Shown: positions 1,908 to 38,260 of the stretch, one piece after another
Layout: the number at the start of each line of letters is the position of its first letter
Numbering within the stretch: position 1 is the first letter of the stretch
Source of the DNA: a virus
DNA: 41,646 bases
Direction: 5' to 3' (one strand)
Virus record (IMG/VR): IMGVR_UViG_3300050015_000944
Coordinates: 1-41,646 of that record
Made by a program: the position numbers and the translations under genes
The notes under the pieces: generated by a model
Told to the model about the DNA's origin: nothing
Seen by the model: only the letters and a program-made list of their open reading frames with translations
Databases searched by the model: none

Positions 1908-4900
1908 TTAACAGTGCAGTCGGAAGGTCCGAATCTGGAACGGATTGATGTCGAACTCGAACGCTCCATCCCGCAGCTTCAGGGCCGGGCCGTCTTCCTC
2001 CACCAGGTTGCATGAATGCACGGCCCGCACGGGCAGGTCCAGTTGGACTCGCACCTGGCCACGGCCGCCGTGCGGTTCATACAGCCGCAGCACCAGGCCT
2101 CGTCCATCCTGCGCGACCTTGAGCGTCTGCACGACCGCCGCGGCGCCTTCGACCCGCACGAGCGACCGCCGCGTCAGGGGTGTGTCGGCCGCCACCGGCC
2201 AGGCGCCCAGCGGCGTGGTGAGCTCCCAGGCGCGGGCGACGGTTCCGCTGTCGGACCAGTTGCCCGCGTGCGGCAGCAGGCTGTACGTGAAGTCATGCTC
2301 GCCCAGGTCGGCGATGGGGTCGGGATAGCTCGTGCCTCGAAGCAGCGTCAACCGCAGCACGTTATTGAGTGCATCGTAGCCGTACTTGCAGTCGTTCAGC
2401 AGACTCACGCCATAACCCGCCTCGGAAATATCCGCCCACCGTTGGGCGGGCACTTCGAACTTTTCCTGGTCCCAGGGCGTGTTGCGATGCGTCGGCCTCT
2501 CGACCGCGCCGAACTGGACCTCGTAGGTCGCTCGCGTGCTCCGCAGGGCCAGCGGGAAGGCCGCCTTGAGCACCGTGTGCCGCTCTTTCCAGTCCACGTG
2601 CGTGACGAAATCGATCCTCGGCTGGCGAACATACAGAACGATGTCCTGCCGGATCGTCGTTTTTCCGTGATGACGTTCGACGCGCAGGCAACCTCGCAGC
2701 GGGCCTTTTTCCACCACGCGCAGCGTCGTGGGACCCTGGATCGGGTATCGCTTCTTGCCCACGGTGGCGTGCAGGTTCCAGGCGTCTTCGCATTCCGGGC
2801 CGTCCTGGAAAAGTTGGAGGTCATTGCCCACCTGCCCGGCCTCGAGCACCGAGCGGCGATTGATCTTGTCGAACAGCTCGACGATCCCGCCGTCACGATT
2901 CAGGCGGATTCGCCAGTAGCGGTTTTGCAGCGTCGTGGCTGAAACCTCCAGGCTGCTGGCCTCGGGGCATGGTTCGGACGAAAGCTGGTAAACACCGTAT
3001 CCGCACGAGGGCGCCTCGGGCGGGGCCAGCAGCACGCGCGCTTTGCCGCCGGATTTGTCGAGCACTTGCACGGGCGTGCTGGCGCCATCCGGTGCGACGA
3101 GGCTGCGCGGCGCGATGGCCGTCTTGAGCTCCACCTCGACCACGTCGTCTCGCTTCCAGGAAAGGGTGTTCAGGACGCACACGCGGTCGGTGCTGCCGAC
3201 GATCTGTTTGGGGGTCGCGACGGCCAGGGCCCGCTCCTTTACGGAACGAGCCAGATCCTGAATTCGTTGGTGGTCCGTCAAAGCCTCCTCGTACACCATC
3301 CCGATCGAGCTGCCCGGCAGGATGTCGTGGAACTGGTTTAGCAGCAGCAACCGCCAGGCCTGCTGGAGGCTGTCGGTGTCCACCTTGGCCCCGGCGGCGC
3401 GGGCGAGACTGGCGGCGAAGTCCGCTTCGCGCAGCGCCCACTCGGCCTGCCGGTTGGCCCGCTTGATGTGCCCCTGCGTGGTGAACGTACCGCGATGCGT
3501 TTCGAGGTACAGTTCACCGTCCCACAGCGGCAGGTCGGCCTCGGCGGCCTGGAGAAAATATTGTTCCGACGGCCCGGTCTGAATCGCGGGCAGGCCGGGG
3601 AAGCCCTTCTCCTGGCGAGTCAGGCGTTCCAACATGCCCTCGTTCGCGCCGCCTCCACCGTCGCCGTGACCGTACGTGAAGAGCAACTGCCCATGCTGGG
3701 CCTTCTGCCCGTACCGCTCCCATCCGCTGATGAGCTGGTCCGGGAAAGGTTCGTTGTTGTACATGCCCGGGAACTGCGGAATGTGCGAAAGGATCTCCGT
3801 GCCGTCCAGCCCGCGCCAGCGGAACAGGTGATTCGGCCAACCGTTGCGGCTCTGCCAGTGCAGCTTGCACGTGAAGAAGTGATCCAAGCCGCAACCGGCC
3901 AGGATTTCGGGCAGCGAGGCCGGGTACCCGAACACATCCGGCAGCCAGCAGCCGCGCGGGCGCGTGCCGAACTCGCGCCGGAAAAACTCCAGCCCTTCGA
4001 GAATCTGGCGGATGAGCGACTCGCCCGAGGGCACGTTGCAGTCGGCCTCGACCCACATGGCCCCGGTGGTCTCCCACCGGCCGCTACGGACCCACTTCTT
4101 GACCTGGCTGTAGAGCTCGGGGTAATGCTCCTTGGCGTACTGGTAGAGTTGCGGCTGACTGCACGCGAAGTGGAAGTTGGGGTAACGTTCCATCAGGCGG
4201 CAGGCGGTGGCGAAAGTGCGGGCGGTCTTGCGGACGGTCTCGCGCAGCGGCCAGAGCCAGGCGACGTCGATGTGCGAGTGCCCGACGGCGAAGATGCTTC
4301 CGGCGCCCGCGTCGAGGGGAATGTCGCCCAGGCGGCGGGCAAATTCGACGCGGGCCGCCTTGACCTGCCGCAGCAGGTCCGCTCGCGGCGCCTGCATGTC
4401 CACCGCCAGCAGGACCGCCTCGACGGTCTGCTCAAGCAGTGCCTTTCGCTTGAGGTCCTTGGTGGCGTTGGCGGTTTCCCAGGCCAGAGTGACGTCCATG
4501 GCCAGGCCTTCGAGCTCCGGGCTGACGGTGCAGACTCGGGCGCCCAGGAAGCGGCTGGTCCGCCCGCGGACACCCGGGTCCCAATAGTGCGGCGGCATCG
4601 ACATGGCTTCGACGACCAGTTCCATTCGCCCGCGCCGCGGCAGTTGGATGCGCTTGTGCCCCCAGTCCAGCCCGCAGTACGGCACGCCGTCGATCGAGAG
4701 CAGCGCCTCGATGTCGTCGAACTGGAACTCCAGGAACGCGCGCTTGAGGTCCACGTCGGCCCCGACCGTCAGCGGCACCCGAAGGAAGATGGTCTTGCCC
4801 GATGCCGTCAGCAGCGGCGTGGCGATTTTTCGTCGGGGCCCGTCAAACTTATATTGTCCCGGGCTGAGGAACTCCGCGGTGCGGGCCTGCCAGTTCTCCA

Positions 4901-4970
4901 CCGGCCAACTCCGTTCCACCGCCAGCGACCTTAATGACGCAAGTCTCGACTGAACCACGTTGGGATGCAT
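1908..4970 (-). CDS. Alpha-mannosidase, glycoside hydrolase family 38
   Basis: This 1020-aa protein hydrolyses alpha-mannosides, and its size fits the cytosolic/ER-type GH38 enzymes. Diagnostic segments are visible: the zinc-binding G-H-S-H-I-D-V-A-W-L-W-P motif at the start of the catalytic domain, the G-R-W-E-T-T-G-A-M-W-V-E-A-D segment, and W-L-P-D-V-F-G-Y-P, which carries the catalytic aspartate. A middle helical domain and a long C-terminal beta-sandwich region follow. I chose the ATG at 4968-4970 because AGGAGA lies 6 nt upstream. The open frame extends a further 71 codons to 5183, but that part runs through palindromic repeats and is not protein-like. No signal peptide is visible, so it is probably cytoplasmic and acts on imported oligosaccharides. 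It is convergent with the beta-helix gene. Confidence 0.95.
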   Translation of the reverse strand: MHPNVVQSRLASLRSLAVERSWPVENWQARTAEFLSPGQYKFDGPRRKIATPLLTASGKTIFLRVPLTVGADVDLKRAFLEFQFDDIEALLSIDGVPYCGLDWGHKRIQLPRRGRMELVVEAMSMPPHYWDPGVRGRTSRFLGARVCTVSPELEGLAMDVTLAWETANATKDLKRKALLEQTVEAVLLAVDMQAPRADLLRQVKAARVEFARRLGDIPLDAGAGSIFAVGHSHIDVAWLWPLRETVRKTARTFATACRLMERYPNFHFACSQPQLYQYAKEHYPELYSQVKKWVRSGRWETTGAMWVEADCNVPSGESLIRQILEGLEFFRREFGTRPRGCWLPDVFGYPASLPEILAGCGLDHFFTCKLHWQSRNGWPNHLFRWRGLDGTEILSHIPQFPGMYNNEPFPDQLISGWERYGQKAQHGQLLFTYGHGDGGGGANEGMLERLTRQEKGFPGLPAIQTGPSEQYFLQAAEADLPLWDGELYLETHRGTFTTQGHIKRANRQAEWALREADFAASLARAAGAKVDTDSLQQAWRLLLLNQFHDILPGSSIGMVYEEALTDHQRIQDLARSVKERALAVATPKQIVGSTDRVCVLNTLSWKRDDVVEVELKTAIAPRSLVAPDGASTPVQVLDKSGGKARVLLAPPEAPSCGYGVYQLSSEPCPEASSLEVSATTLQNRYWRIRLNRDGGIVELFDKINRRSVLEAGQVGNDLQLFQDGPECEDAWNLHATVGKKRYPIQGPTTLRVVEKGPLRGCLRVERHHGKTTIRQDIVLYVRQPRIDFVTHVDWKERHTVLKAAFPLALRSTRATYEVQFGAVERPTHRNTPWDQEKFEVPAQRWADISEAGYGVSLLNDCKYGYDALNNVLRLTLLRGTSYPDPIADLGEHDFTYSLLPHAGNWSDSGTVARAWELTTPLGAWPVAADTPLTRRSLVRVEGAAAVVQTLKVAQDGRGLVLRLYEPHGGRGQVRVQLDLPVRAVHSCNLVEEDGPALKLRDGAFEFDINPFQIRTFRLHC

Positions 4971-5087
4971 AAGTCTCCTATTCCGTTTTTGGGCGTTCTT
5001 CCGTCGGCCAATAGAATACAGTCTGGCCCGTTGCCTCGCCAGCCCGTACGCCGTGATGGGTGCATTAACGTTTGGGTGGACTTCTTT

Positions 5088-5313
5088 AAGCCCCTCGCAC
5101 TGCGAGGGCGATGTCCGAACAACATCCCCCGGCAGTGCCGGGGGCTTAAAAAATACGTACGCGACGAGAACGAGTCTTCTCAAGCCCCTCGCACTGCGAG
5201 GGGATGTCTTTTCTTTAAGCCCCTCGCACTGCGAGGGCGATGTCTTTTCTTTAAGCCCCTCGCACTGCGAGGGGATGTCCCCAAGTCATCCCCCGGCGGT
5301 GCCGGGGGCTTTA
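5088..5313. repeat. Cluster of six REP-like palindromes
   Basis: Four copies of a type A unit (AAGCCCCTCGCACTGCGAGG followed by GG or GC and GATGTC) begin at 5088, 5182, 5217 and 5253. Two copies of a type B unit (CCCCCGGCAGTGCCGGGGG and one base variant) lie at about 5122-5147 and 5287-5313, in the opposite orientation. Each unit is itself a hairpin with a GCACTGC-type centre. A and B are paired tail to tail at 5088/5122 and 5253/5287, the arrangement of bacterial interspersed mosaic elements built from REP sequences. Together with the following stretch this fills the 479-bp gene-free gap 4971-5449. Confidence 0.85.
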
Positions 5314-5449
5314 TGTAGCGGCGCGCGTTTGTTTGGGGGTAGATGCGCGCTTGTTGCGTGTGCGAAATGCGTTCGCGCCCGTAGAACGCCGTTCGGCAAA
5401 ACCCGGTTTGAGGGTCTTGCGATGGGGAGGCGAACGGCATGATAGCGGA
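5314..5449. other. Gene-free stretch; candidate outer end of the prophage
   Basis: No gene is seen here. It lies between the last host repeat and the stop codon of the last prophage gene, so one transposon end should fall in or near it. A TG dinucleotide at 5314-5315, directly after the REP palindrome, is a possible terminus. Two similar stretches follow, one starting GCGCGCGTTTGTTTG (about 5321) and one GCGCGCTTGTTGCG (about 5345). The second continues into GTGTGCGAAATG, which carries the CGAAA core typical of MuA binding sites. This is inference; the matching right end is outside the window. Confidence 0.3.
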
Positions 5450-6103
5450 TCAGGTTGGAACGTCAAGGGGGTAAAAAGGGGCGGCGGGCGGCTTTCGGGG
5501 GGAGTTTCGGGCGGGTTCCCATGTCGCGACGGCCTCGTCTTGGGCTCTGGCCTGGATAATCCAGCCTTCCGGGTCGGTCAAAAGCTGGCCCAAAAGGCGT
5601 AGGCCGATGGGGGCCAATTCCCGCCTCCACAACTCTCCCGCGTCATCGCCTGGACGGACGTGGCAAAGGTCCTGGGCGATGATCGGCCCAGCGTCCATTC
5701 GGTCATCCATAATATAGAGTGTGCCGCCCGCGATCTTATCGCCCATCGCCAGCGTCCAGGCGACGGCATCCCGGCCGCGATGCCTGGGCAGGAGCGAGGG
5801 GTGATAACCCACCGCTCCGAGCCTGGCCTTGGCGCGGATCGCCGCGTCCAGGATCACGTGACTGTGGGCCGACAGGATCAAATCGACGTCCTCGGGGATC
5901 ACCTCCGCCTTCAGGGCGGCCGGATGGTAGGACGCCAGGATGATCGGCCCGCTTGCGGCCGCTGCCGCGTCGTACAACCGGTCGTGTCGCCCATCCGAGG
6001 TGAACATCGGAGCGCAAACGGCCGTCACCCGGTGCCCCGCGTGAATCGCCAGTTTGAACACCTCCGCGCCGAACCACTTTTGTCCCACGATCATCAGATT
6101 CAT
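5450..6103 (-). CDS. Formyltransferase-domain protein (PF00551 type) of the prophage modification module
   Basis: This 217-aa protein has the fold signature of folate-dependent formyltransferases: an N-terminal Rossmann-like start (M-N-L-M-I-V-G-Q), then G-Y-H-P-S-L-L-P-R-H-R-G and G-G-T-L-Y-I-M-D-D-R-M-D-A-G-P-I-I. The active-site histidine of H-P-S-L-L-P and the final aspartate are kept. The usual N-x-H and T-x-H-x-M-D-x-x-D are altered to Y-H and T-L-Y-I-M-D, so activity may differ. It is far shorter than Met-tRNA formyltransferase (about 310 aa) and lacks that enzyme's C-terminal domain. Its ATG overlaps the stop of the upstream ATPase-GNAT gene by 4 bp, so the two are translationally coupled. 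I infer that it adds a one-carbon group in a DNA base modification pathway. It is the last gene of the late arm. Confidence 0.8.
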   Translation of the reverse strand: MNLMIVGQKWFGAEVFKLAIHAGHRVTAVCAPMFTSDGRHDRLYDAAAAASGPIILASYHPAALKAEVIPEDVDLILSAHSHVILDAAIRAKARLGAVGYHPSLLPRHRGRDAVAWTLAMGDKIAGGTLYIMDDRMDAGPIIAQDLCHVRPGDDAGELWRRELAPIGLRLLGQLLTDPEGWIIQARAQDEAVATWEPARNSPRKPPAAPFYPLDVPT

Positions 6104-7230
6104 GCCTGGCCCTCGTAAATGAATCCCTGCACCGCCCGGAAGTGTCCGCCGTATCCGGCCGTGATGACTTCCTTGCCCATCCGAACGGCCGATCTGGCAA
6201 TGGACTGCCGCGACTTCTCGCGTCCGCCGCCGTAGAGCCTGCAGGAGACCTGCCGCCAGTTATCCGACCTCCGCAGGGCCGCGCAGAGGCCAGGATGCGA
6301 CGTGTGAAAGTACGTCTTGAGCGGACGCTTCCAACGGTTGTTTCCGGCCAGCATCTGTCGGCAGATTTCGGCCAGGAACCGCAGCCCCACGCCCGCGCCC
6401 TGCCACTGGGGCATGACGACCAGTCGCGACGCCCTGGCGGCCACGCTGCGCCCGGCGAGCATCGTGCCCACGGCCAGGTGGCATACCGGCTCGCCATCGA
6501 CCGCTCCCACGAAGTTGACCGCGTTGATCATGTGGGGAAGTCTCAAATAGTAATGCGGCTCAAACAGGGGCCAATATCGCCAGTCGGTCTGATGGATCGC
6601 CAACTCGAACCTTGGGCGTCGCCAAAGACCCCTCCCGGCGTATTTGCCGGTTGCGGTGTCGAAGATCCAGTCCGGCTCTAGCCAGTCGATGATGTCGTAA
6701 TGACAGGACAGCAGCACGCATTTGCCCGAGGTCCTGCGCCACGCCTTGCCGAACGCCATGGCCCCGACGCGGGCGATCTGACGGTCCACGACGCTGGTGA
6801 ATTCGTCGATCACCACGCGGGCCGGCGCGTCGCAGATCACGCGGGCCAGGTCCGCCCGGAACCGTTCCCCGTTGGACAGCACGCGATACGGGCGAAGCCA
6901 CGCGGGCACGTCGCCAAGGCCCACGGCCGCCAGCGCCGCCGCGACAGGGTCAAACGGGCCATCCGGAGCGATGGCGTCGATGATCGGGCGGTTGGCAGGC
7001 CAGCCGGAGGGGTCATAAACGCAGGCGGGGCCAAAGAGCTTACGGCCCATCGAGCTTTTTCCCGTCCCGCTGGGTCCGACGATCAGGCCGATCTTCCAGC
7101 CGTCGTCGTCAATGGGAAGGTCTGCATCGAGGTCGAAGTTGCAGCCGCTCTCCGCGTTGAACAGGCTTTTGACGCGGGCGGCGCGGTAACTGTTGAAGTC
7201 GCTGCAGCGATGGTGGATTTCGAGCTTCAT
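6100..7230 (-). CDS. ABC-type ATPase fused to a GNAT (Mom-like) acyltransferase domain
   Basis: This is a 376-aa two-domain protein. Residues ~40-185 form an ABC ATPase: Walker A G-P-S-G-T-G-K-S-S (52-60), signature L-S-N-G-E (118-122), Walker B V-V-I-D-E (139-143) and an H-loop histidine (177). No membrane segment is present, so this is a soluble ATPase and not a transporter. Residues ~200-376 look like a GNAT fold: strands around L-A-V-G-T-M-L-A-G, then V-V-M-P-Q-W-Q-G-A-G-V-G containing the acyl-CoA binding Q-x-x-G-x-G. Mu Mom is a GNAT-fold enzyme that modifies adenines in phage DNA and is encoded at the right end of Mu. This gene sits at the equivalent end of the late arm. The Mom-like function is inferred from fold and position. 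Its start overlaps the stop of the 52-aa gene upstream (ATGA). Confidence 0.8.
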   Translation of the reverse strand: MKLEIHHRCSDFNSYRAARVKSLFNAESGCNFDLDADLPIDDDGWKIGLIVGPSGTGKSSMGRKLFGPACVYDPSGWPANRPIIDAIAPDGPFDPVAAALAAVGLGDVPAWLRPYRVLSNGERFRADLARVICDAPARVVIDEFTSVVDRQIARVGAMAFGKAWRRTSGKCVLLSCHYDIIDWLEPDWIFDTATGKYAGRGLWRRPRFELAIHQTDWRYWPLFEPHYYLRLPHMINAVNFVGAVDGEPVCHLAVGTMLAGRSVAARASRLVVMPQWQGAGVGLRFLAEICRQMLAGNNRWKRPLKTYFHTSHPGLCAALRRSDNWRQVSCRLYGGGREKSRQSIARSAVRMGKEVITAGYGGHFRAVQGFIYEGQA

Positions 7231-7385
7231 GTGACCACCACCTTGCAGGAATGGCCCTGCCGTACGAACTTCCGGTAGAGCCGCTTTTGGTGTGCCTCGT
7301 CTTTACAGAGGACGATGATTCCGAACTGCTGAACGTACTTGTGCCAACCCGGATCGGCCGGCTTGGAACCGCTGGAATTACTCAC
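7227..7385 (-). CDS. Small 52-aa protein coupled to the ATPase-GNAT gene
   Basis: A short frame starts at GTG 7383-7385, right after an in-frame TGA, and its own TGA overlaps the ATG of the next gene by 4 bp. The peptide contains G-W-H-K-Y-V-Q-Q-F-G-I-I-V-L-C-K-D-E-A-H and then Q-K-R-L-Y-R-K-F, ending C-K-V-V-V-T. That is a beta-alpha-beta pattern seen in small phage proteins next to ParB-like or DNA-processing genes, as far as I recall. The regular hydrophobic pattern and the coupling make it a likely real gene. No clear Shine-Dalgarno lies at the usual spacing (GAGG is ~14 nt upstream). Function unknown. Confidence 0.6.
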   Translation of the reverse strand: MSNSSGSKPADPGWHKYVQQFGIIVLCKDEAHQKRLYRKFVRQGHSCKVVVT

Positions 7386-7512: not shown

Positions 7513-8394
7513 TTACCACGGGGATTTCAGCGACACCCCAGCGGCGTCCATTCGCTGGACGATTTGCAGGCGTTTCTTCATGCCCGCGAAGTCGATGCCC
7601 AGCGGGTTGTAGCCGTTGCCGTCGAGCTGATCCTGGCTGACCAGGACGTACGCCTCGCTGCAATAGGTGGCCCAGAACCCAAGGGTCATATCCTGGTATT
7701 GCGCCCAGGTGGTCGTCGGGGCCATGGCGGCCGAAAGGATCAACCTCTGTGTCGCCGTGCAGTGCCCGCCCCAGGAACCGGGCGCGAAGCTGGCCTTAAT
7801 CCCGGCCCTGTCCGTTGACCAGGGCAGGCCCTTTTTCAATTGCTCTGCGGCCGAGGCCGGTAGCTCCAGGCCGTCCAGGATGCCCTGGCAGGCGTACATG
7901 CCCAGGCGGACCTGGTCGATGTCGCTCGGATTGATCGCCGCGAAGGCCGCGATCTTGGTGCCGCCGATGCCGGTGTTGACCCAGTATTTGAGCACGTCCA
8001 AAAGGCACGCGCCGTTGTCGGTCGGGTTGTTGCCGTTGGCATCGAGCGGGGCATTGGAGTCGAAGCCCGCCACATCGTGGTAGGCCATCAGCAGGCCCCG
8101 AAGCGTGATTACGCTTGACGAGCCGACGCTGCCTCGCCAACCCTGATCCAGATTGGCAGGCCCGGCGAAGGCGCAATCGCCCAGGGGAACCTGGTCCGGG
8201 TCCTTCGGATCGGGGCCGTTGCCCCACATGTTGAGCGTGCCCATGCCGCCCGCCCAGTCGATATCATCGGGCACGGTGGCCAGCAGGGCCTTGGGATCGT
8301 CAGGCAGGAAGTCGGTGAGCGTCAGCGTCCGCTCGTCGAAGACGGCCGGGAGCTTGCCGAGCTTGAGACTGAATGGATTGATGTCCTGTTTCAT
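7513..8394 (-). CDS. Papain-like cysteine peptidase-fold protein
   Basis: A 293-aa protein with the arrangement of phage and bacterial papain-like proteins: an L-G-D-C-A-F-A-G motif near residue 74 (candidate nucleophile Cys) and, about 145 residues on, G-S-W-G-G-H-C-T-A (candidate His). Later come aromatic segments, including T-L-G-F-W-A-T-Y-C-S-E-A-Y-V-L-V-S, that match the closing part of such folds. It starts at ATG 8392-8394 behind GGAG. The neighbours are a small membrane protein and two lipoproteins, so a role in lysis or cell entry (murein or protein cleavage) is possible but not shown. The DNA-modification-like module follows after a 127-bp gap. Confidence 0.65.
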   Translation of the reverse strand: MKQDINPFSLKLGKLPAVFDERTLTLTDFLPDDPKALLATVPDDIDWAGGMGTLNMWGNGPDPKDPDQVPLGDCAFAGPANLDQGWRGSVGSSSVITLRGLLMAYHDVAGFDSNAPLDANGNNPTDNGACLLDVLKYWVNTGIGGTKIAAFAAINPSDIDQVRLGMYACQGILDGLELPASAAEQLKKGLPWSTDRAGIKASFAPGSWGGHCTATQRLILSAAMAPTTTWAQYQDMTLGFWATYCSEAYVLVSQDQLDGNGYNPLGIDFAGMKKRLQIVQRMDAAGVSLKSPW

Positions 8395-37080: not shown

Positions 37081-37589
37081 ACAAGCCCACGCAATGCTCG
37101 ATCTTCGCCGAAGGATTCCAGGGACGGGACATCCCCGTCCCGATCACGGCCGCCATGGATCGGCTCTTCGCCAAGCGGTCCTTCCCGCAATCGGCCCGCG
37201 AGTGGTTCGCCATGATGCTGGGCGACAACGGCGACATCATCCAGGGCCGGCACGGCCGTCGGATGTATGACCTGGCGGGCTACTCGCACGAGGGTTCGAC
37301 CACCGAGTTCAACCGGGTCCTGGCCGACCTGGGCGCGATCGTGACCGCGTACTTCATCGCCAACGCCCCGCCGCCCAAAACCAAGAGGAGACGCATGGAC
37401 GACTATCGATTCGACCCGATCCGCCGCACGGACGGCAAATGGTATTTCGACATCTACGAACTGGGCACCGACAAGCTGGTCCACACCACCGAGCCGCGCA
37501 AGAGCCTGGACGTGGCGCGGCTGGACTGCCGCACTTGGCTCAAGGGCGAGGCCCCCAACAACGATAACGCCGTGGCCGGAGCGCAATGA
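37077..37589 (+). CDS. Early protein of unknown function, 170 aa, with internal start site
   Basis: TTG 37077 overlaps the previous stop (TTGA) behind GGGGGAT, so I took it as start. The protein reads N-K-P-T-Q-C-S-I-F-A-E, then a helical part (M-D-R-L-F-A-K-R-S-F-P-Q-S-A-R-E-W-F-A) and a separate C-terminal region M-D-D-Y-R-F-D-P-I-R-R. Before that M (ATG 37395) there is a strong AGAGGAGA, so a second, 64-aa product may be made from the same frame. The stop overlaps the next ATG. Confidence 0.6.
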   Translation: MNKPTQCSIFAEGFQGRDIPVPITAAMDRLFAKRSFPQSAREWFAMMLGDNGDIIQGRHGRRMYDLAGYSHEGSTTEFNRVLADLGAIVTAYFIANAPPPKTKRRRMDDYRFDPIRRTDGKWYFDIYELGTDKLVHTTEPRKSLDVARLDCRTWLKGEAPNNDNAVAGAQ

Positions 37590-38260
37590 AGCGAGACCGG
37601 AACATCCTGTTCGATCACAACAGCGAGATGATCTACCGCGTCTGTGAGAACATCGCGCGGGGCCGGGCGGCCAAGGGAACGGTCAACGGCATGACCGTCA
37701 ACGACTATTGCCAGGCCGCCCTGATGGGCGTCTGGAGATCGCTGGGCAAGTACCGGGCGGACAAAGGCGAGCTTCGGCCCTGGGTCATCCAGCAGGCCCG
37801 CCGCGCGATCCTGGACGAGATCCGGAAATGCGACGAGGTGGGCCGGTCGCGTCGGGCCGACGGCATCGTCGGGCCACAGTCCTCCCTGGAATCACTGGCC
37901 GCGTCGGCCACGGGCGGCGTGATCCGGGAATTGACGGTCAGCCCGCGACACGCCGACCGGCTGATGGCGGCCGAGGCGATCGCGCAGCACCTGGCGGGCC
38001 TGGACCCGCAAGAGCGGATGATCGTCTACCTGGTCGAGGTGCTCGACCACGCGGACTTCGAGGCCGCCGCCGTGCTGGACCTTCCGGTCGATGTGGCGCG
38101 GGACGTTCACGCGGCCGCGATGGCCAAGCTGCGGGGCAGGCCTGAATCGAGGGGCGAAGGGCGAGGGGCGAGGGGCGAAACAGCCAAGAAAAGCAAGCAG
38201 AAATTCGCGTTGCCGGGCGGGCCGTGCGGCCCGCTCTTCACGCAAGGAAGCGAAAATTGA
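37586..38260 (+). CDS. Sigma-70-like sigma factor
   Basis: A 224-aa protein with region 2-like N-D-Y-C-Q-A-A-L-M-G-V-W-R-S-L-G-K-Y-R (39-57), then G-E-L-R-P-W-V-I-Q-Q-A-R-R-A-I-L-D-E-I-R (61-80). A region 4-like part follows (L-D-P-Q-E-R-M-I-V-Y-L-V and A-A-A-V-L-D-L-P-V). It would direct RNA polymerase to other phage promoters, perhaps the late ones. It lies between the early helper genes and GemA, roughly where Mu puts its transcription activators. Its C-terminal tail (R-G-E-G-R-G-A-R-G-E) is repeat-encoded. ATGA overlap with the upstream gene. Confidence 0.7.
   Translation: MKRDRNILFDHNSEMIYRVCENIARGRAAKGTVNGMTVNDYCQAALMGVWRSLGKYRADKGELRPWVIQQARRAILDEIRKCDEVGRSRRADGIVGPQSSLESLAASATGGVIRELTVSPRHADRLMAAEAIAQHLAGLDPQERMIVYLVEVLDHADFEAAAVLDLPVDVARDVHAAAMAKLRGRPESRGEGRGARGETAKKSKQKFALPGGPCGPLFTQGSEN
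38147..38176. repeat. Heptamer repeat within a coding tail, word GGCGAGG
   Basis: GAGGGGCGAAGGGCGAGGGG followed by CGAGGGGCGA shows four 7-bp units. They are translated as the Gly/Arg/Glu tail of the sigma-like protein. Confidence 0.75.

Follow-up and report, generated by a model that had tools for sequence, protein, structure and literature searches.

A putative DNA-acylation cassette with an ABC-ATPase/GNAT fusion, a ParB-type tail protein and a formyltransferase-fold protein at the late end of a Mu-like phage

Introduction

The final late genes of the Mu-like virus record analysed here (41,646 bases, referred to in full as the window) encode a protein of 52 residues (P52), a fusion of an ABC ATPase with a GNAT domain, and a formyltransferase-fold protein (FT). 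GNAT enzymes often use proteins, tRNA or small molecules as substrates, and the locus raises the question of what such a domain modifies when it is tied to an ATPase at the end of a phage late arm, and what the two flanking proteins contribute. The initial annotation proposed a new DNA-modification module with kinship to the Mom protein of phage Mu, in which the ATPase would power or gate the reaction and the formyltransferase would add a one-carbon group, giving a base other than that of Mu. According to Iyer et al. 2021 (PMC7824862), a 2013 study (Iyer et al.) had already predicted that a GNAT domain working with an ABC ATPase places an uncharacterised acyl group on a DNA base, with an example in phage pT24. 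We compared the three genes with their homologues, modelled the fusion and analysed what occupies the corresponding position in sister phages.

Results

Three overlapping genes close the late arm

The three genes are intact and all lie on the minus strand. P52 (7227-7385; 52 aa, GTG start, phrog_28816) is followed by the fusion (6100-7230; 376 aa, phrog_11143) and by FT (5450-6103; 217 aa, phrog_9240), a formyltransferase-fold protein of the 10-formyl-THF-dependent type. Each junction is an ATGA overlap, visible on the plus strand as TCAT at 7227-7230 and 6100-6103; the coordinates, strand, lengths and 4-bp overlaps of the initial annotation all agree with the recomputed open reading frames. 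That they close the late arm of a Mu-like phage, as it stated, was likewise borne out. By its gene content the record can be counted as a Mu-like transposable phage: GemA scored above the Pfam cut-off when the window proteins were searched, and an rve transposase and a MuB-like AAA ATPase were matched at E values of 1e-4 to 6e-4, under the curated cut-offs.

A 293-aa gene (7513-8394, minus strand) precedes P52 directly among the late genes, and the early region contains a sigma-70 region 2 protein (37586-38260, plus strand; PF04542, E 7e-11). Past position 5450 the phage genes give way to a repeat-rich stretch and then to an open reading frame (5183..1908), glycosidase-like on reading, which is probably host DNA. 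Between the phage end and this host-like gene, at 5090-5315, are several palindrome copies of the CCCCTCGCACTGCGAGGG and CCCCGGCxxTGCCGGGGG types.

The fusion joins an ABC ATPase with all motifs to a predicted GNAT domain

The fusion matches PHROG family 11143, of unknown function, along its whole length (473 bits), and its sequence places it among the family's proteins that join an ABC domain with all motifs to a GNAT domain. The ABC motifs are Walker A (GPSGTGKS, residues 52-59; 7054-7077), the signature (LSNGE, residues 118-122; 6865-6879), Walker B with the catalytic glutamate (VVIDE, residues 139-143; 6802-6816) and the H-loop His177 within SCHYDIIDW (6700-6702), all on the minus strand. 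An alignment of 57 homologues revealed no variation at the key residues of Walker A, signature, Walker B, D-loop and H-loop; the invariant positions are G52..GK58, L118-S119-x-G121, D142-E143, D149 and H177. The ABC motifs were thus rightly described as complete from the window alone.

The predicted structure of the fusion (pLDDT 87.4, pTM 0.81) has two parts. Its first 200 residues superpose on ABC transporter ATPases in the PDB (Z 15), and DSSP assignment of the model finds the strands and helices of residues 205-330, approximately the extent of the domain (6241-6618, minus strand), in GNAT order. The putative acyl-CoA binding loop, Q277-x-x-G280-x-G282 (6385-6402, minus strand), sits right in front of the helix that comes after the long strands; Q277 is invariant and G280 is conserved in at least 90% of the 57 aligned homologues. 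Searched against PDB sequences, a profile of this half gave weak matches (best E 0.007), the highest-ranking of them mostly to GNAT enzymes, with NAT10 among them at E 0.19. A fold search of the fusion had viral acetyltransferase models among its matches; when the model was compared with the PDB by Foldseek and VIA-align, the matches listed covered the ABC half only. The modelled strand and helix order, together with a loop of the Q/R-x-x-G-x-G/A form, supports assignment of the C-terminal half to the GNAT superfamily, and the structure prediction that the initial annotation had named as a check on its GNAT assignment came out in its favour.

Kinship with Mom, which had also been proposed, was not recovered. 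Among hits up to E 1 there was no match between the window protein and the Mom family PF25680, and alignment of the GNAT half with Mom by hhalign, in both local and global mode, returned nothing. An 'HY' pair shared near the domain starts (HHYL against NHYS) was considered and set aside as unsupported by profile alignment. As it matches neither the family nor its profile and keeps a canonical acyl-CoA loop, the GNAT half is, as far as its sequence tells, not demonstrably Mom.

P52 corresponds to the C-terminus of ParB-like partners

The last ~32 residues of P52 correspond to the C-terminus of proteins of ~180-270 aa that are encoded directly upstream of the ABC-GNAT gene in other phages, sharing with them the motif Y-x-V-I-V-x-C-x-D-E...Q...G-x-x-C-[KR]-V-V. 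A ParB-like partner precedes the fusion at most of the other loci. The longer partners contain a ParB N-terminal domain (PF02195) in 12 of 16 cases, and the model of a long partner has a ParB-like fold. Sequence homology thus identifies P52 as a stand-alone copy of the ParB-like C-terminal motif. Across 189 unique loci the upstream partner is long in 105 and short in 59, the short form being usual among Mu-like phages. PF02195 was absent from P52 and from the whole window in a Pfam scan, and 25 of 32 Mu-like records with the short form, the window included, have no ParB domain anywhere in the record. Since most such records are without one, the tail seems to be the portion of the ParB-like partner that the fusion requires. 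Com is a small protein overlapping mom; a Com-like role of P52 as translation regulator was dropped, since P52 is homologous to ParB-like C-termini.

FT resembles FDH N-terminal domains

The separate short formyltransferase of the initial annotation, with its H-P-S-L-L-P stretch, matches PF00551 (Formyl_trans_N) with 79 bits against a cut-off of 26.1, but carries G-Y-H instead of N-x-H. A catalytic Asn two residues ahead of the His (N-x-H) is typical of GART, FMT and ArnA. In FT the alignment has Gly99 in place of the Asn of GART and FMT, just before the active-site stretch H101-P-S103-L-L-P (5786-5803, minus strand); H101, S103 and the catalytic Asp137 of DAGP (5693-5695, minus strand) are invariant in 25 homologues. 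G-Y-H is found in the window and in nearly all homologues, with I-F-H or A-Y-H in a few. Profile and catalytic His and Asp together assign FT to Formyl_trans_N, and its sequence sets it apart from GART/PurN and methionyl-tRNA formyltransferase.

The nearest solved sequences to FT are the N-terminal domains of FDH (ALDH1L1), which read I-Y-H at the place of G-Y-H and so have Ile at the position where FT has Gly. FT has the same His-Ser-Asp triad as FDH (PMC6802093), an enzyme that passes formyl from 10-formyl-THF to the thiol of a phosphopantetheine arm (PMC8748788). For HypX, a formyl handover to CoA has been proposed, not shown (PMC6802093). Compared with the FDH and HypX N-terminal domains, FT is a short protein and has neither carrier nor dehydrogenase domain. 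By analogy, the resemblance to FDH and the HypX precedent suggest that FT might produce formyl-CoA, which could serve a GNAT enzyme as donor.

FT follows the fusion in one clade, and other genes follow it elsewhere

ABC-GNAT homologues were found in 51 phage records and hundreds of viral contigs; a scan of genome contigs gave nine loci, two of them close. The Tenacibaculum phage pT24 protein is a direct homologue of the fusion (33% identity, E 4e-33). FT is the next gene after ABC-GNAT in 83 of the 91 eligible loci whose fusion is at least 50% identical to the window protein, whereas it follows in none of the 72 eligible loci below 50%; many records are fragments, and absences count only taken together. 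In the tree, all FT tips fall within one clade of 90, 84 of which have FT, in counts that take in metagenomic contigs without assigned host. The dN/dS values of the trio are 0.05-0.24, indicating purifying selection. Because of this spread and this selection, the trio is judged, by comparison of its sequences, to be conserved and not a chance arrangement. The co-occurrence of fusion and formyltransferase in other phages, which had been put forward as a check on the proposed module, was found, and the three genes can be treated as one module.

Individual phages illustrate the variation. Pseudomonas phage Komp_PAO1_1 closes its late arm with a short tail protein, the fusion and FT; Gordonia phage Sisko and relatives combine a full ParB-like protein with the fusion and FT; and phages of Porphyromonas gingivalis also carry the fusion and FT pair. 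The more distant Jace, EastWest and Pmp13 have ParB and the fusion without FT, and in LE3 the neighbour of the fusion is ParB-like by annotation. Within the phage collection, the top matches to FT all come from ABC-GNAT phages. As FT is absent from the distant relatives, the core reaction must be able to proceed without it.

Other genes stand in its place there. In a distant clade of five tips (support 0.995) that includes Gordonia phage Jace, the aspartate decarboxylase PanD and a CoA-transferase of family III are encoded directly downstream of ParB and ABC-GNAT (for example L007:4972-6083, L059:1796-2826 and L070:2655-3679), with 4-bp overlaps in the metagenomic members. A MaoC-like hydratase occupies the position at one locus (L069:4207-4704), ASCH-domain genes at others (L005:4597-4989 and L006:4997-5374; Javan141, Vinitor-27), and many distant loci pass straight from ABC-GNAT to the terminase genes. 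The variable downstream genes thus sometimes belong to CoA-acyl chemistry, in a small number of loci (five with PanD/CoA-transferase, one with MaoC). Clade-specific occurrence of FT and of PanD with CoA-transferase III suggests that they are exchangeable acyl-donor modules. Papers on LE3/LE4 and the Mu-like Leptospira phages report nothing on DNA modification by the ABC-GNAT family.

The trio exchanges with Mom and an adenine methylase

Ten P. gingivalis phages have a tail arm in common at 83-100% identity. The slot that follows their last tail gene holds the trio in five of them and a Mom of PF25680 in four, while one, HG1691old (L109:3533-3723), has neither there; the right-end sequence is common to these sister phages whatever the slot contains. 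Two of the Mom genes, scanned directly, matched PF25680 at E about 1e-55. In a second lineage, L289 (trio) and L290 are 84% identical until the cassette boundary, at which point L290 encodes a D12 N6-adenine methylase (PF02086, E 2e-25) in place of the trio. The same relation holds at lower identity in a third lineage, between L291 (trio) and L295, L296 and L299 (D12). A DNA methylase is also the slot holder in fF4-like transposable phages (PMC7761591).

In profile scans none of 44 distinct trio-family records contained Mom (0/31, and 0/15 in a set including the window record), with PF25680 matched in 16 of 17 control records. Conversely, ABC-GNAT was found in 0 of 29 Mom records, and the D12 methylase in 0 of 33 trio-family records. 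The trio, Mom and D12 are mutually exclusive across the tested records. This cassette exchange is the strongest argument for the function of the trio: because the slot of sister phages holds Mom or D12, the genomic context lends good support to the trio as a DNA-modification module, as proposed in the initial annotation, and to the terminal slot as a DNA-modification slot. Slot sharing speaks for interchange of cassettes, not for identical chemistry, and the slot may be no more than a site where accessory anti-defence genes accumulate.

The interval from the last tail gene to P52 contains, in the trio phages of P. gingivalis, a segment of ~53 bp between inverted repeats (CCACTCGATA.../...TATCGAGTGG) (L003:7673-7763 and L306:973-1060; also L111, L304 and L305). 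The KCOM2797 and Kyudai-3 phages, otherwise 99.9% identical, carry this segment in opposite orientations, and it was not seen in the two Mom sister phages inspected. An invertible, phase-variable switch before the cassette is possible, as are a hairpin or an assembly artefact.

Discussion

We propose, with a probability of about 0.7, that the trio is a cassette for the acylation of phage DNA bases that takes the slot held elsewhere by mom or a D12 methylase. For the parts of this proposal confidence varies. DNA is quite probably the substrate, and an acyl-CoA thioester probably the donor, from which the GNAT domain would transfer the acyl group to the exocyclic amino group of a base. The ABC domains may dimerise upon ATP binding and clamp or open the DNA, a step argued by analogy and about evenly balanced. 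P52, as the tail of a ParB-like partner, would dock on the fusion or activate it, a place taken elsewhere by the full ParB-like protein. FT would either supply formyl-CoA, a donor-side role that we advance tentatively, or formylate the amine of the transferred group. The outcome would be phage DNA hidden from host nucleases.

Three known systems bear comparison. Mom of phage Mu (PF25680), of a family marked by a carbamoylmethyl-type modification of DNA adenine, and the trio have in common the terminal late-arm slot, where they are swapped in sister phages, and both are predicted GNAT-fold DNA modifiers. Unlike the Mom proteins examined, the trio retains the acyl-CoA motif; it has no detectable sequence or profile similarity to Mom, and adds an ATPase, a ParB-tail protein and FT. 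TmcA/NAT10, the tRNA/rRNA cytidine acetyltransferase, has a helicase-type ATPase and a GNAT domain in one chain and acts on RNA; the fusion, by prediction, is likewise a single-chain ATPase and GNAT protein acting on nucleic acid, with an ABC ATPase in place of the helicase type. The system predicted by Iyer et al. in 2013 has the same ABC and GNAT core and the same predicted function, to which the window adds FT, retaining no more of the ParB-like partner than its C-terminal tail. The module is accordingly new in part: its DNA-acylation core had been predicted earlier (PMC7824862), and relative to that source the ParB tail, the slot swaps and the clade-specific downstream genes are new as far as we could check.

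Other roles for the individual proteins were weighed. Annotations in several phages, such as 'ABC iron siderophore transporter', make the ATPase part of a membrane transporter, in keeping with the superposition of its ABC half on transporter ATPases; fusion to a GNAT domain, coupling to ParB-like proteins, the lack of an annotated adjoining permease gene among the annotated records and the absence of a membrane segment from the fusion, noted in the initial annotation, leave this hardly credible. For FT, the PHROGs label of its family, cyanobacterial phosphoribosylglycinamide formyltransferase, would point to a PurN-like auxiliary metabolic gene of purine synthesis, independent of its neighbours. 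That is very improbable given its position after ABC-GNAT at 83 of 91 close loci and at none of the distant ones, the origin of its best phage matches in ABC-GNAT phages, and the missing catalytic Asn of GART. Within a DNA-modification cassette, FT may instead work after or beside the GNAT domain, formylating the amine of a glycyl- or beta-alanyl-like group, or a base amine directly. Most members of the fold (FMT, ArnA, GART) formylate amines, which counts for such a role, and PanD in another clade hints at an amino-acyl donor there. FT is, however, without the Asn of the amine formylases' N-x-H and is FDH-like at this site (G-Y-H, compared with I-Y-H), and an amino-acyl-CoA gene was not found beside FT in the window; we hold action on an amine as tentatively as the donor-side role, the remaining probability falling to other functions.

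The cassette could also acylate a host protein or small molecule, such as RNA polymerase or a restriction or defence protein, in a slot that collects anti-defence genes. There is precedent in the phage GNAT Rac, which acetylates host RNA polymerase (PMC7552054), and some ParB-like domains are NTPases or nucleases with no link to modification (PMC10853773). The alternatives found in the slot are DNA-modifying enzymes only, in three lineages, and the fF4-like phages add a DNA methylase (PMC7761591), which makes a target other than DNA unlikely.

DNA acylation, our preferred reading, would fit a wider scheme that we put forward with considerable reserve. In it, phage DNA acylation would be modular, with a constant ATP-driven core of ParB-type tail and ABC-GNAT, and with CoA-linked groups provided by exchangeable downstream genes: formyl by FT in one clade, and a beta-alanyl-type group by PanD and CoA-transferase III in another. 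Several new bases could result.

In the literature consulted, the ABC-GNAT system has been a prediction since 2013. That sister phages swap it for mom or for an adenine methylase provides independent evidence for DNA modification. If the downstream genes set the chemistry, the family would yield a series of new DNA bases and represent a new type of ATP-coupled DNA acyltransferase.
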